Source: an uncultured Ignavibacteria bacterium
Lineage (GTDB): Bacteria > Bacteroidota > Ignavibacteria > Kapaibacteriales > Kapaibacteriaceae
Direction of reading: 5' to 3'
DNA length: 64,000 bases
Assembly (NCBI GenBank): GCA_903939735.1
Contig: CAJAIA010000003.1
Span: 1-64,000 of the forward strand
The position numbers and the translations under genes are program-made. The notes under the pieces were generated by a model. That model was not told the origin of the DNA. It ran no database searches and worked only from the letters and a program-made list of their open reading frames with translations. Position 1 is the first letter of the stretch. The number at the start of each line of letters is the position of its first letter. This document shows positions 1-63,241 of this stretch, in pieces.

Positions 1-630
1 ACGCGACTCGAGCCATTTCCCGAGAAGCACAAGGGCGATAATGGTCGATGCCGAGTCGAAGTATGCGCCAGGATGCGAGACTGATGGAAGAAGGGAAGGA
101 GCAAGCGTGGCGACAACACTCGTGATAAAGGCTGTGCCAGTCCCGAGTGTAACCAGGGTATCCATTGTTGCTGTGCGATTACGCGTAGCATTCCATGCAC
201 CGCGGAACATGGAACGTCCGGCCAACATCACAGGTGTTGCCATGATGAAGAGCACTGTGTTGAGCCATGAGGGTGCGTGGTGCATCATCATTGCGCCCAT
301 CGAGAGAATCAACACAACGCTCGCAAACGGAGCGGCGAGCAGCAGATCGCGTCGGTATCCGCTTGCAATAGCTTGCAGACGATCTGCTAGTTCATGAGGG
401 TTCGTGGGTGCGGTGACCTCGCGAATCGCCGTTGCTGTGTAGCCTGCGTTCGCCACTGCCGAGCGAATGGCATCGTCACTCACGCTCTCTGGCGCATCCA
501 CCATTGCGCGGTTCGTCACAAGATTGATCGTCGCTGCGGTAACGTCTGGAATGGCACGTAATGCATCTTCAACGCGCTGCACGCATGCAGCGCAGTGCAT
601 ACCACCAATATCGACGATGCGCTGAATCAC
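1..630 (-). CDS. copA: Cu(I)-translocating P-type ATPase, N-terminal part (cut by window edge)
   Basis: Read by hand on the minus strand: 210 open codons from GTG at 630 to the window edge. It is missing from the ORF track, probably because it has no stop inside the window. Residues 1-65 form a heavy-metal-associated domain with the metal site GMHCAAC. Membrane segments follow, with MDTLVTLGTGTAF and YFDSASTIIALVLLGKWLESR-type sequence typical of the transmembrane part of CopA-like P1B-ATPases. The phosphorylation and CPC motifs lie outside the window, so metal specificity (Cu(I) rather than Ag or another metal) is inferred from the family. The GTG start overlaps the msrA stop in a GTGA, so translation is probably coupled to msrA. 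Expected role: ATP-driven copper efflux across the inner membrane. Confidence 0.9.
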   Translation of the reverse strand, partial: MIQRIVDIGGMHCAACVQRVEDALRAIPDVTAATINLVTNRAMVDAPESVSDDAIRSAVANAGYTATAIREVTAPTNPHELADRLQAIASGYRRDLLLAAPFASVVLILSMGAMMMHHAPSWLNTVLFIMATPVMLAGRSMFRGAWNATRNRTATMDTLVTLGTGTAFITSVVATLAPSLLPSVSHPGAYFDSASTIIALVLLGKWLESR

Positions 631-1356: not shown

Positions 1357-1734
1357 CTAGTGGGACAGCATGCGAGGTGCGAACAAGCCGGCTAGGGATG
1401 CCGCACCACAGCACACGAGTGTTGTCGTGGTATAGATCGCCAGAGTCGAGAACTGACCCTCCTGGGCGAGAAGTGCACTCTCGACAGCGAATGCCGAATA
1501 CGTTGTAAATCCACCGCAGAGTCCGGTGCCGAGGAGCAGTAACGCCGGACGTGAGATGGATGCCGAGACCATAGATGAGCCAACGAGTGCGCCCAGGATG
1601 AACGAACCAACGACATTGACTACCAAGGTTGACCAGGGAAAGGTCCCGAGCGTATGTGGAAGCACCAACCCGACGCCATAACGGAGTCCGCTCCCAACAG
1701 CTCCACCGATCATCACAAGTGCGAGGTCAATCAT
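1357..1734 (-). CDS. crcB: Fluoride ion channel CrcB/FluC
   Basis: The 125-residue protein matches the usual length and four-helix layout of CrcB/Fluc. It has GAVGSGLRYG near the N-terminus, the conserved NVVGSFILG segment in helix 2, and GGFTTYSAF, the family's phenylalanine/threonine-rich fluoride pathway region. Such proteins act as antiparallel dimers in the inner membrane and let fluoride leave the cytoplasm. The start codon is only 38 nt from the divergent aminopeptidase start, so no fluoride riboswitch can be accommodated. TAGTTT lies 6 nt before the ATG, which suggests a leaderless transcript. msrA follows after 52 nt and may be cotranscribed. Confidence 0.93.
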   Translation of the reverse strand: MIDLALVMIGGAVGSGLRYGVGLVLPHTLGTFPWSTLVVNVVGSFILGALVGSSMVSASISRPALLLLGTGLCGGFTTYSAFAVESALLAQEGQFSTLAIYTTTTLVCCGAASLAGLFAPRMLSH

Positions 1735-1740
1735 GGTGGC

Positions 1741-1748
1741 AAACTAGG
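1741..1748 (-). promoter_or_regulatory. Predicted -10 element of crcB (leaderless)
   Basis: On the minus strand CCTAGTTT is followed by GCCACC and the crcB ATG. The TAnnTT hexamer therefore ends 6 nt before the start codon, so transcription would begin at or next to the A of ATG. No Shine-Dalgarno is present and no TTG is seen 18-20 nt upstream. Confidence 0.5.
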
Positions 1749-1760
1749 AAATGCTCGCAC

Positions 1761-1768
1761 TATCTTTG
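1761..1768 (+). promoter_or_regulatory. Predicted -7/-10 element TATCTTTG of the M1 peptidase gene (leaderless)
   Basis: TATCTTTG is an exact match to the Bacteroidota -7 consensus TAnnTTTG. It is followed by CCCC and then the ATG at 1773. The spacing from TATCTT to ATG is 6 nt, the same as at crcB, manC, the hydroxylase gene, murQ and the last gene of the window. Confidence 0.6.
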
Positions 1769-1772
1769 CCCC

Positions 1773-4217
1773 ATGCCTCTACTCGTTCTTCTTCTCGCGC
1801 TTGTGATGCCCCTTGCTGCATACGCACAAGCACCCGTAGTTCACACATCTACCTATGTCGACGTTCTGGGCAGTGAGCCCCGGGAACACCCGGTGGATAT
1901 TCTCCGGATGACGGTGAACGTGCGGTTCGAGCCTGAGAATGCGCTCGTGAAGGGCACTGTTACGCATGTGTTCCGTGCCTTACGCGAACAGGTGGATTCG
2001 ATTGAATTCGACGCGATCAAGATCACGATCAAGCAGGCAACGCTCGGCGGACGTCCCGTGCGGACACGGTCGACGGATACGAGCGTGATCGTGTACTGCG
2101 AGCCGCGCCTGCGATGGGATCAGCAGGATTCAGTCGTGTTTACCTACGAGGCAACGCCACGTAAGGGCATCTACTTCATTGGGTGGAACGATCCATCCAA
2201 GCGCATGCGCCGTCAGATCTGGACGCAGGGCCAGGCCATCGACAATCGTCATTGGATTCCGATGTACGATGAGATGAACGACAAGATGATCACCGAAACC
2301 ATCACGACGTTCGACTCAACGTATGCGGTGCTGTCGAATGGCACGCGCTACAAGGTGACATCGAACAGCGATGGTACCAAGACATGGTACTATGTCATGA
2401 CTAAGCCTCATCCATCGTATCTCTTGATGCTCGCCATTGGTACATACGCCATCACCGATCGTCGATCTGCCTCTGGCGTGCCGCTGCGACTGTACTCGTA
2501 TCCCGAGTTCCCTGAGCGTGTCGAGCCAACGTATCGCATGAGTGTGGAGGCGATGGATTTCCTCGAGCGCGAAATCGGTATCCCATACCCATGGGAAGCC
2601 TATAGCCAGGTACCCGTGGCTGACTACATCTTCGGCGCAATGGAGAATACCACGGCGACCATCTTCGGCGACTTCTTCCATACCGATGAGCGTGGATGGA
2701 TCGATCGCTCGTATGTCGGCGTCAACGTGCACGAACTCACACACCAATGGTTTGGCGACTATATCACGGGTCGCAGCGGCAAGTCAATCTGGTTGCAGGA
2801 GAGCTTCGCGACATTCTACCCGCACCTCTTCACGCGCGAGACAGTTGGTGAAGATGCATATCAGTGGAGCCGACGCGGCATGCATCGCAGCGCACTCGCA
2901 GCTGGCGAGAAGGATCGTCTACCAATTGTGCATCCAAGCAGTGGCACTGCCCGCATCTATCCAAAGGGGGCTAGTGTTATCGACATGATGCGCTACACCT
3001 TTGGTGAGCAGTCGGTGCGACGCGTGATTCAACACTACCTCCGCAAGCACCCATACACCACTGTTGAAACAAACGATCTGTATCTCGCATTCCAGGACAC
3101 TCTTGGATTGTCGCCGAAGTGGTTCTTCGATCAGTGGTTGTATCGTGGTGGCGAACCACAATACCGAGTATCGACGCGCCTTGGTGCAATGCAAACCGAA
3201 AAGGGTGTAGGCACCACCACGCTTGTAGATATCGAGCAGATTCATCAGATCGACGACCTCACGGGCGTGTTTACCATGCCGATCGTGTTGGAAGTGCACT
3301 ATACAGATCGCACGAAGGACTCCGTACGAGTGATGGTCAATCAGCAACGGATGCTCGTTGAGATCCCTAACACAGCGAACAAGACCCCCGCATTCGTGTT
3401 GTTCGATCCGGGATCGAACATTCTTAAGCGCGTCACGTTCGACCGCTCATGGGACGCCCGTATGGCACAGGTGCAGCACGCACCGCTCATGATCGACCGG
3501 TATGACGCACTGGAAACATTCCGTGGCGATACATCACGTTCAGCCGAGCGTCGCGCAATGCTTGCAGGTGTAATGTCGCGTGAGTCCTTCCACGCGCTTC
3601 GTTCCGAGGCAGCGCAGCAAGCCATCGAGCTCGCACAAAAGGGGATACCTGAGGCATGGGAACTTGTCAAACGCGGTCTCACTGATCGAGCCGTTGAGGT
3701 ACGTTCGGCAACTCTGGGAGCACTTACGTCGGTTCCGCAACAGCTGCGTGAGACGGTTGCCGGCATGCTTCGCGACACATCGTATGCGATCATCCAATCG
3801 GCTCTGGCCAAACTCGCCACCTCGTTCCCGTCGGACCGAAGCGTTCTTGCCGCAGTGAAGGGCATGCGGGGTCCACACGAGCGCGTGCGCATTGCTCGAC
3901 TTGAAATCGAAGCAACATGGAGCGACGATGACGGTGCGGTCAAGGAGCTTTCCGATCTCTGCGGACCAGGCTGGGAGTTCATTACCCGTCAGAATGCCAT
4001 GCAGGCACTCCGACGCGTCGGTACCATCACGCCACTGGCTGCCGAGAATATGTTGCTGGCTGTGCTCAGCACGAATACCCGGCTTGCCGGCGTTGCACAG
4101 TCTGTACTGTCCGGATTATGTGAGCAACCGCGTCTGAAAGCAATCGTGACCGCAACAGCCAAATCAATGCAACTCGTTGAATGGCAAAGAGATACGCTCG
4201 CAACGTACCTCCGCTAG
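1773..4217 (+). CDS. M1-family zinc aminopeptidase with C-terminal HEAT-like region, exported
   Basis: The start was moved from the track's TTG at 1629 to ATG 1773, because MPLLVLLLALVMPLAAYAQ is a clean signal peptide and a -7 element sits just upstream. The mature protein has the M1 substrate motif GAMEN (about residue 288) and the zinc site HELTHQWFGD (H320, E321, H324), with the third ligand Glu343 in WLQESFATFY. The catalytic half ends near residue 560. The last 200 residues are helical repeats of HEAT type (alternating short Ala/Leu-rich helices), as in several M1 enzymes. It should remove N-terminal residues from peptides in the periplasm or outside the cell. The product is 814 residues. 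It is divergent from crcB and seems to be monocistronic. Confidence 0.92.
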   Translation: MPLLVLLLALVMPLAAYAQAPVVHTSTYVDVLGSEPREHPVDILRMTVNVRFEPENALVKGTVTHVFRALREQVDSIEFDAIKITIKQATLGGRPVRTRSTDTSVIVYCEPRLRWDQQDSVVFTYEATPRKGIYFIGWNDPSKRMRRQIWTQGQAIDNRHWIPMYDEMNDKMITETITTFDSTYAVLSNGTRYKVTSNSDGTKTWYYVMTKPHPSYLLMLAIGTYAITDRRSASGVPLRLYSYPEFPERVEPTYRMSVEAMDFLEREIGIPYPWEAYSQVPVADYIFGAMENTTATIFGDFFHTDERGWIDRSYVGVNVHELTHQWFGDYITGRSGKSIWLQESFATFYPHLFTRETVGEDAYQWSRRGMHRSALAAGEKDRLPIVHPSSGTARIYPKGASVIDMMRYTFGEQSVRRVIQHYLRKHPYTTVETNDLYLAFQDTLGLSPKWFFDQWLYRGGEPQYRVSTRLGAMQTEKGVGTTTLVDIEQIHQIDDLTGVFTMPIVLEVHYTDRTKDSVRVMVNQQRMLVEIPNTANKTPAFVLFDPGSNILKRVTFDRSWDARMAQVQHAPLMIDRYDALETFRGDTSRSAERRAMLAGVMSRESFHALRSEAAQQAIELAQKGIPEAWELVKRGLTDRAVEVRSATLGALTSVPQQLRETVAGMLRDTSYAIIQSALAKLATSFPSDRSVLAAVKGMRGPHERVRIARLEIEATWSDDDGAVKELSDLCGPGWEFITRQNAMQALRRVGTITPLAAENMLLAVLSTNTRLAGVAQSVLSGLCEQPRLKAIVTATAKSMQLVEWQRDTLATYLR

Positions 4218-12146: not shown

Positions 12147-12154
12147 TAGTTTCG
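12147..12154 (+). promoter_or_regulatory. Predicted -7 element TAGTTTCG of manC (leaderless)
   Basis: TAGTTTCG followed by CCAT and the manC ATG at 12159. The hexamer TAGTTT ends 6 nt before the start codon. The block TAGTTTCGCC(A/G)TATG recurs almost unchanged before the hydroxylase gene at 26553. Confidence 0.6.
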
Positions 12155-26517: not shown

Positions 26518-26522
26518 AATTC

Positions 26523-26528
26523 AACATA
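26523..26528 (-). promoter_or_regulatory. Predicted -10 element TATGTT of the VWA gene
   Basis: TATGTT on the minus strand ends 5 nt before GTG 26517, giving a near-leaderless transcript if that GTG is used, or a leader of about 24 nt if ATG 26493 is used. It faces the hydroxylase promoter across 12 bp containing TACAACAGACGTTGTA, a 6-bp inverted repeat. Confidence 0.35.
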
Positions 26529-26540
26529 CAACAGACGTTG

Positions 26541-26548
26541 TAGTTTCG
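26541..26548 (+). promoter_or_regulatory. Predicted -7 element TAGTTTCG of the hydroxylase gene (leaderless)
   Basis: TAGTTTCG, then CCGT, then ATG 26553. The TAGTTT-to-ATG spacing is 6 nt and the whole block is nearly the same as the manC start region. Confidence 0.6.
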
Positions 26549-28550: not shown

Positions 28551-28558
28551 TAGATTTG
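28551..28558 (+). promoter_or_regulatory. Predicted -7 element TAGATTTG of murQ (leaderless)
   Basis: TAGATTTG is an exact TAnnTTTG, followed by CAGT and ATG 28563, so the hexamer ends 6 nt before the start codon. No Shine-Dalgarno is present. Confidence 0.6.
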
Positions 28559-40204: not shown

Positions 40205-40212
40205 TAGGTTTG
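40205..40212 (+). promoter_or_regulatory. Predicted -7 element TAGGTTTG of lnt
   Basis: An exact TAnnTTTG. TAGGTT ends 8 nt before GTG 40219, so the leader would be 0-2 nt. This supports GTG 40219 as the true start rather than the track's TTG at 40192, which lies inside the terminator. Confidence 0.5.
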
Positions 40213-61127: not shown

Positions 61128-63232
61128 TGAACTTCCTTAATCCGTTCGCTCTTCTGGGTCTTGCCGCGGCTGGGATTCCTGTGCTTCTGCACTTGTTGAA
61201 TCTCCGTAAGCTGCGGACGATCGAGTTTTCGACGGTGCAGTTTCTTCTCGAACTGCAGCAGACACGTGTCCGCAAACTCAAGATCCAACAGATCTTGTTG
61301 CTCATCCTTCGCACGCTTGTCGTGCTGTTTGCCGTCTTCGCGTTGGCACGTCCAACGATTCCTGGCTCGCTGCCGTTGCTTTCGTCGACATCACGCTCGA
61401 GTGTGATCATCCTGATCGATAATTCGGGAAGCATGGAGGCATCGGATGGAGGGGGCGAGCGACTGCTTCAAGCGAAGAAGGCTGCGCGACAGATTGTGGA
61501 GGGCCTACGCGATGGCGACGAAGTTGTTGTCTTGCCGATGACCGGTCTTGATGGCTCAACGTCGATCGACTTTACGCGCACGTTCCCGATTGCTCTCGAG
61601 CATATCGAGCGTGTTCGTTGTACTGATGGAACAGCTAATCTTCCATCAGCGCTTCGGACGGTACGTCCGCTGCTCGACAATGCTCTGCATGCACATCGTG
61701 AGATCTACGTGGTGAGCGATGCGCAACGGTCGATCATGCATCGCGCTGATGCTTCACGCGATCACGTTCTCACACACGATGCATCGGTCTTCCTTGTGCG
61801 TGTTGGTGACGGACAGCGTGGATTAGAACAGAACGTTTCGGTGGATTCGGTTGCACTGCGAACAGCTCTGTTTCAGCCTGAGAAAGCTGTCGAGCTCGAA
61901 GCACAGGTGAGGAACGGCAGCGAACGTGATGCGACCGGTGTTGTTGTATCGATGTCGTTTGATGGCGTACGTGTTGCACAGCGTGTTGTGGATCTCCCCG
62001 CAGGGGAAACACGAACAGTGTCGCTCGCTGCTCCTCCGCAACGCAGCGGCATGATTGCGGCTGCAATTGAACTTGAAAATGATGCCATCGATCGTGACAA
62101 TGTGCGATGGGTGGGCTTTACGGTTCCCGAACGGGCAACGGTAGGCGTGATCGGTTCTGAGTCCGACGCGCTCTTTGTGCGCACTGTGCTGTCATTGCCA
62201 GGCATGGAGCGCAGCGCTCCGCGTCTGCAACAGTATCGCACGCTCCGCGAGGCAGCGCCGGCACTTTCGTCGCTTGATGCCATCGTGATCGCTGGTGGTG
62301 ACATAACCACGCAGGATATCTCGCAGGTGCGTCAGTTTGCCGAGAGCGGTGGTGGCCTTGTTGTGTTCGGTTCCGACGCAGCCGGTCTGGCTGAGCTACT
62401 GAGCACATGTGGGCTTGTTGTCGGAGATCGTGTGAGCTCTGATGGTGATGCACCGTTTGCCATCACGTCGGCCGACAAGCAGCATCCGCTTTTTGCAGGC
62501 GTGTTTATCACGTCCACAGGCACCGACCGTGCCGTTGAGTCTCCGCGTATCACCACGTTGCGTCCTGCTCGTGGCGGTACAGAGATCGTGCAAACCTCGG
62601 CTGGTGCAATGATCACGGAGTCTGTACTCGGTCAAGGCCGCGTGATCTATTGCGGTGTTCCTCCCACAATGGAATGGAGTACCTTCCCAACGACTGGGTT
62701 GTTCGCGGCCTTCATGGTGCGATCGATCCTCTACACGGTGTCTCCGCGTGATCAAGGCCTGTCGGTAGCCGTCGGCGACGCTGTTCGTGTGCCGGTGCCG
62801 CCACGACATGCCGGTGATCAGAGTTTCGTTGCGCGCGATGTCTATGATGTTGAAACGACCTTGTTCCCAGTGCGACTGCCGTCATCGACACTCCTTGAGC
62901 TACCTCCACAGTATCGCAGTGGCGTTGTGAAGATCCGCGCGCAGGATTCCTCATCGGTGATGACTGTAACCTTGAACGCGGCAACTACGGAGTCCCGACT
63001 CGACTTCATCGAGCGCGGAACGTGGGCGAACGAACTTGCTCCCATGGTAGACCACCCCGACCACGTCGTGGAGGTGTCTACCCAATCGTCGATGCGGGAT
63101 GTTGCCCAGGCCGCCCGCACCGGATCAGAGCTGTGGTCGGTCTTCGTTGTCCTAGCACTCATCTGTGCCGTTGCCGAAATGGCTGTCTCACGCTTCATGG
63201 CCCAAGAAGCATCGGTGGCAGCTACGACGTAA
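61127..63232 (+). CDS. BatA/VWA-domain membrane protein
   Basis: ATG 61127 shares one base with the preceding TGA. The 701-residue protein starts with a BatA N-terminal domain (MNFLNPFALLGLAAAGIPVLLHLLNLRKLRTIEFSTVQFL...RTLVVLFAVFALARP, two membrane helices). A VWA domain with MIDAS ILIDNSGSMEA (about 85-250) and a GATase-like segment (about 350-470, GGGLVVFGSDAAGLAELL) follow, with one membrane helix near the C-terminus (WSVFVVLALICAVAEMAV). Related Bat proteins contribute to aerotolerance in Bacteroides; here no AAA+ MoxR or BatB gene is adjacent, so the role is open. The stop TAA is also the start of the TAAATT promoter of the next gene. Confidence 0.85.
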   Translation: MNFLNPFALLGLAAAGIPVLLHLLNLRKLRTIEFSTVQFLLELQQTRVRKLKIQQILLLILRTLVVLFAVFALARPTIPGSLPLLSSTSRSSVIILIDNSGSMEASDGGGERLLQAKKAARQIVEGLRDGDEVVVLPMTGLDGSTSIDFTRTFPIALEHIERVRCTDGTANLPSALRTVRPLLDNALHAHREIYVVSDAQRSIMHRADASRDHVLTHDASVFLVRVGDGQRGLEQNVSVDSVALRTALFQPEKAVELEAQVRNGSERDATGVVVSMSFDGVRVAQRVVDLPAGETRTVSLAAPPQRSGMIAAAIELENDAIDRDNVRWVGFTVPERATVGVIGSESDALFVRTVLSLPGMERSAPRLQQYRTLREAAPALSSLDAIVIAGGDITTQDISQVRQFAESGGGLVVFGSDAAGLAELLSTCGLVVGDRVSSDGDAPFAITSADKQHPLFAGVFITSTGTDRAVESPRITTLRPARGGTEIVQTSAGAMITESVLGQGRVIYCGVPPTMEWSTFPTTGLFAAFMVRSILYTVSPRDQGLSVAVGDAVRVPVPPRHAGDQSFVARDVYDVETTLFPVRLPSSTLLELPPQYRSGVVKIRAQDSSSVMTVTLNAATTESRLDFIERGTWANELAPMVDHPDHVVEVSTQSSMRDVAQAARTGSELWSVFVVLALICAVAEMAVSRFMAQEASVAATT

Positions 63233-63235
63233 ATT
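63230..63235 (+). promoter_or_regulatory. Predicted -10 element TAAATT of the J-domain-like gene (leaderless)
   Basis: TAAATT begins at the stop codon TAA of the BatA/VWA gene, followed by CCGCGT and ATG 63242: again 6 nt to the start codon and no Shine-Dalgarno. Confidence 0.5.
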
Positions 63236-63241
63236 CCGCGT

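Follow-up and report, generated by a model that had tools for sequence, protein, structure and literature searches.

In the window, the 64,000-nucleotide stretch of DNA from an uncultured Ignavibacteria bacterium that was analysed here, crcB, a gene of the fluoride exporter family (1357..1734, minus strand; Pfam PF02537, E 1.6e-24), and an M1-family metallopeptidase gene (1773..4217, plus strand; PF01433, E 1.2e-32), whose start at 1773 is supported by relatives, diverge from a gap of only 38 bp (1735..1772). This gap holds the putative promoters of both genes back to back, with 14 bp between their boxes. On the plus strand, the predicted -7 box TATCTTTG (1761..1768) is followed by 4 nt (CCCC) and the ATG of the M1 gene at 1773, which would also be the transcription start (+1). 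On the minus strand, the box TAGTTTGC (1739..1746), a TAnnTTGY variant, is likewise separated by 4 nt from the ATG of crcB (1734..1732), with a predicted +1 at 1734. Given these starts, the -33 region of each promoter would fall in the -7 box of the other, and because of this overlap polymerase should not occupy both promoters at once.

The sequence-only reading had listed six genes of the window in which TAnnTT is followed by exactly 6 nt and ATG, and had placed them in a single class. A search of both strands for TANNTT-N6-ATG returned these six sites with the same coordinates and no others, and every one of them precedes a gene start. As a bare string count six is unremarkable when taken alone, shuffles of the window giving 3.7 +- 1.9. 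Counted at gene starts, TAnnTT was found exactly at -12 in 5 of the 35 called ATG starts of the window against 0.17 expected (p = 8e-7), and the number would be six if the M1 start, which the caller put 33 nt too far in, were placed correctly.

Five of the six genes are convincing members of one class. crcB, the M1 peptidase gene, a manC-like nucleotidyltransferase gene, a gene of the fatty-acid hydroxylase family and a murQ-like SIS-domain gene all head divergent units, and their families were confirmed by Pfam. The boxes of the last three lie on the plus strand, each with 4 nt before the start codon: TAGTTTCG at 12147..12154 precedes ATG 12159 of the manC-like gene (PF00483, PF22640), TAGTTTCG at 26541..26548 precedes ATG 26553 of the hydroxylase gene (PF04116) and TAGATTTG at 28551..28558 precedes ATG 28563 of the murQ-like gene (PF22645). 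The sixth site, TAAATTCC (63230..63237, plus strand) before ATG 63242, is probably a chance match, because its TA comes from the stop codon TAA (63230-63232) of the gene upstream. It is operon-internal, the preceding same-strand gene ending 9 nt upstream, its box is poor, and stop-codon coincidence explains 17 of the 26 operon-internal matches in the genome; on these grounds we take it for a coincidence rather than a leaderless promoter.

Two further boxes of the window face GTG codons. TATGTTGA (26521..26528, minus strand) stands 3 nt from GTG 26517 of a divergent 1536-aa ORF and possibly forms, together with the hydroxylase box, a second back-to-back pair in a gap of 35 bp. TAGGTTTG (40205..40212, plus strand) is followed after 6 nt by GTG 40219 of a same-strand gene, the gap between the genes being 88 bp; with its box beginning 14 nt upstream, this could be a further leaderless or near-leaderless GTG start or else a misplaced start.

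TAnnTT at gene starts across the genome

The window's own genome has a size of 2.47 Mb, a G+C content of 54% and a completeness of 100%; 2.43 Mb (98.5%) of it were analysed. A 3-periodic coding model that made no use of upstream signals called 1881 genes. The start codons come from this home-made coding-score caller rather than from curated annotation, and the caller is imperfect, as the missed M1 start illustrates. Since the motif had been picked after the six window sites were seen, the fair test is the genome outside the window. There, 68 of the 1632 called ATG starts had TAnnTT at -12, where 8.0 would be expected (Poisson p about 3e-39); at internal in-frame ATGs the figure was only 7 of 13,083. 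In the genome as a whole, TAnnTT began at -12 relative to the called ATG in 73 genes, at -11 in 52, at -13 in 34 and at -14 in 22, over a background of 7.9 +- 3.7 genes per position; the count of zero at -10 forms an abrupt edge. The positional peak at -12 to -7, which the sequence-only reading had proposed to look for genome-wide, is therefore strong, and its claim of an excess beyond chance holds in the window (5 against 0.17) as well as in the remaining genome. Only the distance of exactly 6 nt needs amendment: -12 is the commonest of a few neighbouring positions, from -14 to -11, all of which are used.

Within this range, TAnnTT preceded 181 of 1668 ATG starts against 44 at control positions, an excess of ~137 genes, and 88 of 449 divergent genes against 20 expected. 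The corresponding figures for GTG starts, 10 of 190 against 3 expected, are very small. Judged by the position of the box, about one in twelve ATG genes (~8%) and ~15% of the divergent ones look leaderless.

Such a peak could be an artefact if start codons had been misannotated and the true starts lay downstream, behind leaders of normal length, and an imperfect caller such as ours might produce errors of this kind. However, the M1 and crcB protein alignments begin at these very ATGs in many relatives, the boxes keep to the orthologous start in different genera and the peak is missing at internal ATGs, so that we regard misannotation as hardly credible.

Nature of the box and length of the leaders

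Aligned on the motif, the genes of the -12 class read c-G-T-A-n-(c/t)-T-T-T-G-C-n-n-C-ATG, and the extended box consensus is (c)GTAnnTTTGC. The box takes the form TAnnTTTG or TTCG with G favoured at -5, and TTCG and TTGC variants are common in this genome. In Flavobacterium johnsoniae, the housekeeping promoter has T-12, A-11, T-8, T-7, T-6 and G-5 when counted from the predicted +1, and +1 lies 4 or 5 nt beyond the G of the box (PMC6847099). The element found here has the same consensus and lies 4 nt from ATG. Because it sits where the Flavobacterium box sits relative to +1, the A of ATG should be the transcription start. Hence we conclude, from sequence and position, that the element is the Bacteroidota housekeeping-sigma -7 box TAnnTTTG of the sigma-ABfr type, which a sigma factor of that type would contact. 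The genome has a single protein with sigma-70 region 3, a 311-aa ORF without region 1.1. Its region 2.4 reads YAVWWIRQSILQA in place of SigA's YATWWIRQAITRA, and with this alteration within the segment 2.3-2.4, where substitutions define the sigma-ABfr type, the predicted protein is in line with the type described in PMC6847099.

The sequence-only reading had likened the element to the -10 element of Actinobacteria and Deinococcus. This likeness did not hold up, given a box of the form TAnnTTTG/TTCG, the favoured G at -5 and a non-canonical sigma factor. A box of that type, the Pribnow-type TANNNT read by a canonical SigA, was rejected on the sequence of the box and the altered sigma.

Compared with the sigma-ABfr promoters of Bacteroidota (-33 TTTG / -7 TAnnTTTG), the same -7 box is found at the same position relative to the predicted +1. 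No enrichment of the -33 element TTTG was observed upstream of 205 boxes; this element is a weak criterion for sigma-ABfr promoters, since the -33 signal is slight in F. johnsoniae too (PMC6847099). Unlike the sigma-ABfr box, the box in our genome is preceded by CG and followed by C or T, has common TTCG and TTGC variants and lies far more often directly on ATG. A variant TAnnTTG(C), in which TTG is one base nearer to TA, is common among the genes predicted to be leaderless, and among the genes of the -11 class, 40% have G at position 6. It resembles the SM5 promoter motif of F. psychrophilum (TAnnTTGY), which the crcB box TAGTTTGC fits at -12..-5; the resemblance is one of motif only.

For unit-leading genes, the leader was predicted by placing +1 at 12 nt after the first T of TAnnTTTG, and length histograms were drawn for the window's genome and for 400 kb of a genome from another genus (G101). 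In the window's genome the predicted leaders are bimodal, with 28 genes at 0 and 51 in the range -2..+2, nine at 4..16 and a broad class from 17 nt onwards. The boxes of leadered genes (118; leaders of 17-75 nt) and those of leaderless genes (48) are flanked alike, by CG before TA and by C or T after TTTG, and because both kinds have one extended logo in common, TAnnTTTG is the general promoter of this genome. This bears directly on the alternative that TAnnTTTG next to ATG acts in translation initiation, as a Kozak-like or AT-rich 5'-UTR signal in mRNAs that ordinarily carry leaders. The fixed distance to ATG would suit such a role, and sequence-specific initiation contexts do replace Shine-Dalgarno (SD) sequences in Bacteroidetes (PMC6847099). 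A translation signal would not, however, recur remotely with the same flanks, as the extended logo does 17-75 nt upstream of other genes, and the desert of leader lengths at 4-16 nt also argues against it; we consider this explanation very unlikely. Leaders of 4-16 nt would not be long enough for SD-led initiation and yet too long for initiation at a 5'-terminal AUG, and a system with these two modes would leave just such a gap.

In 60 of 70 boxed genes the base just before ATG is a pyrimidine, compared with 942 of the 1486 other genes (p = 6e-5), as is expected immediately upstream of a transcription start. The genes might still be only nearly leaderless, with RNA starting 1-5 nt before ATG and short leaders devoid of SD. 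The boxes spread from -14 to -11, and those at -13 and -14 could set the start 1-2 nt before ATG; the start in F. johnsoniae, which varies between 4 and 5 nt from the box (PMC6847099), points in the same direction. Against this stand the mode at a leader of zero and a main class with a pyrimidine at -1 and A at +1, and mRNAs of this kind would in any case be functionally almost equal to leaderless ones. We judge short leaders to be quite improbable as the general explanation.

SD sequences are truly used in this genome, the core being present at -16..-5 in 382 of 1667 starts against 95 at the control position. The test employed a simple 4-base core; the 3' end of the genome's 16S, and with it the anti-SD, is masked (C23:135001-140000). 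The core occurred in 1 of the 48 leaderless and 29 of the 118 leadered genes; this contrast is partly forced, as box and SD would share the same bases, and we downgraded the argument from SD exclusion accordingly.

A class of leaderless genes, as the sequence-only reading had proposed, is thus the best-supported reading of the strong genome-wide peak. In all probability, these genes have sigma-ABfr-type promoters with TAnnTTTG at about -12 to -5 of the start codon, and their RNA starts at or near the A of ATG. The housekeeping polymerase, of the sigma-ABfr type, would read the box and initiate on the A of ATG itself or no more than about 2 nt away. The resulting mRNA would begin with 5'-AUG and have neither a leader nor a Shine-Dalgarno site, and a ribosome carrying fMet-tRNA would bind the 5'-terminal AUG by the leaderless translation route.

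Relatives of the genome and known leaderless genes

Most of the closest relatives of the M1 protein come from Candidatus Kapaibacterium and Ignavibacteria MAGs, which places the genome in Bacteroidota sensu lato. Two records among the relatives bear conspicuous names. A MAG titled 'Melioribacter roseus P3M-2' (L143, CAMCXP010000033.1) has an M1/crcB locus with an M1 protein 95% identical to that of the Kapabacteria-type window, and its name looks wrong. A record titled 'Bradyrhizobiaceae bacterium' (L152, JAGFIZ010000047.1) has an M1 relative of 55% identity with a divergent crcB adjoining and is probably a misbinned contig or a mislabelled MAG.

The M1 box TATCTTTG was present at -11 to -14 in 11 of 11 relatives of 61-95% identity (L143-L151, L155 and L164), although the bases flanking it have changed among them. 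In several relatives of ~51-52% identity (L153, L156, L160 and L161), a TAAATTT(G/A) box lies ~39-42 nt before ATG. These are apparently leadered forms of the gene, with a GGAG-like sequence between box and ATG. M1 orthologues, then, are boxed at ATG within the family and look leadered elsewhere, some with an SD-like sequence, and shifts of a gene between the two modes are directly traceable in them. Among 245 reciprocal best pairs between the window's genome and the 400 kb of G101 (median 57% identity), 10 have the box at -14..-11 in both orthologues, where 2.3 would be expected (p = 9e-6). Of three control offsets, two gave zero shared pairs and the third gave 2, with 0.4 expected. G101 alone has the same peak, in small numbers.

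In a wider survey, TAnnTTTG-N4-ATG (leader 0) was compared with TAnnTTTG-N9-ATG (leader 5) within the same genomes; strings were counted rather than annotated genes, gene calling being confined to the window's genome and G101. Leader 0 exceeded leader 5 in 23 of 23 genomes of the window's own family (959 against 260; median ratio 4.7, minimum 1.56). The median ratio for the other families of the order (96 genomes) was 0.79 and the maximum 1.32. The leaderless excess marks one family within its order, none of the 96 other genomes being comparable. Base composition alone is unlikely to account for it, because the background is low in some of those other families (f3, f40 and f41). Elsewhere in the phylum the excess recurs in a few genomes, G033 and G115 (f19), G041 (f29), G045 (f30) and G178 (f28).

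Leaderless transcripts make up 5.5% in F. psychrophilum (PMC9723704), 3.7% of 5' UTRs are shorter than 10 nt in Bacteroides thetaiotaomicron (PMC7366714) and 87% of leaders exceed 10 nt in F. johnsoniae (PMC6847099). Of the 37 Bacteroidetes/Chlorobi genomes in a survey based on Pribnow-like boxes, 1 was reported to have leaderless genes, and its authors warned that other promoter types would be missed (Zheng 2011, PMC3160421). Our search of the open-access literature, with subscription journals mostly outside its reach, yielded no paper joining Kapabacteria with Shine-Dalgarno or Kapaibacter with leaderless. The sequence-only reading knew of no description for this lineage; the lineage is indeed new, while the kind is known from F. 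psychrophilum and B. thetaiotaomicron. What we describe is a new and stronger instance of that kind, the Bacteroidota leaderless transcripts (a 4-6% minority), with a clear boundary at the family level. The main promoter is TAnnTTTG in these two species as well, leaderless genes being predicted from box position in our case; a sharp zero-leader excess beside real SD use sets the present genome apart from them. The leaderless genes of Actinobacteria and Deinococcus-Thermus are similar in that a promoter box directly upstream of ATG replaces SD, but theirs is Pribnow-type near -10 of ATG instead of TAnnTTTG. Leaderless expression, usually tied to Actinobacteria, Deinococcus and archaea, would thereby be extended to a Bacteroidota lineage in which it coexists with SD-led genes and its excess is restricted to one family of the order, and the box provides a rule by which starts and promoters of uncultured genomes can be predicted from sequence.

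Back-to-back boxes in divergent pairs

crcB divergently adjoins the M1 gene in the loci of 10 relatives and has its own box at -11..-14 in 9 of these, so the back-to-back pair is kept across genera. The box-to-box distance of 14 bp is kept in 7 of 8 relatives, whereas the distances from box to ATG drift from 11 to 14. In the window's genome, 15 of 251 divergent pairs are double-boxed. Their gaps are mostly 28-39 bp (for example C1:64526/64564, C16:40553/40592, C18:38844/38882, C30:56292/56329 and C27:14307/14347), and the box-to-box distances are concentrated at 10-15 bp (8 of 14 pairs). As a family-wide rule this spacing failed, the distances ranging widely from 2 to 30 bp. Across the family, 80 divergent pairs have boxes <=30 bp apart against 6 for a reversed-pattern control, without fixed spacing.

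These pairs raise the tentative, on balance doubtful, idea of a conserved compact module in the family, made up of back-to-back leaderless promoters, that would fire in one direction at a time and couple its genes by competition. Such a module would consist of two outward -7 boxes in a gap of ~28-60 bp, each box on, or close to, the -33 region of its partner, and mutual exclusion between the paired promoters is possible from this arrangement. The compact gaps may instead follow simply from leaderless starts needing no leader. A particularly tight divergent pair at C10:15463-15497 of the window's genome, whose boxes are only 2 bp apart (GCGAAAGTACGTAGCTTCGC, near-palindromic), is found again in several members of the genus.
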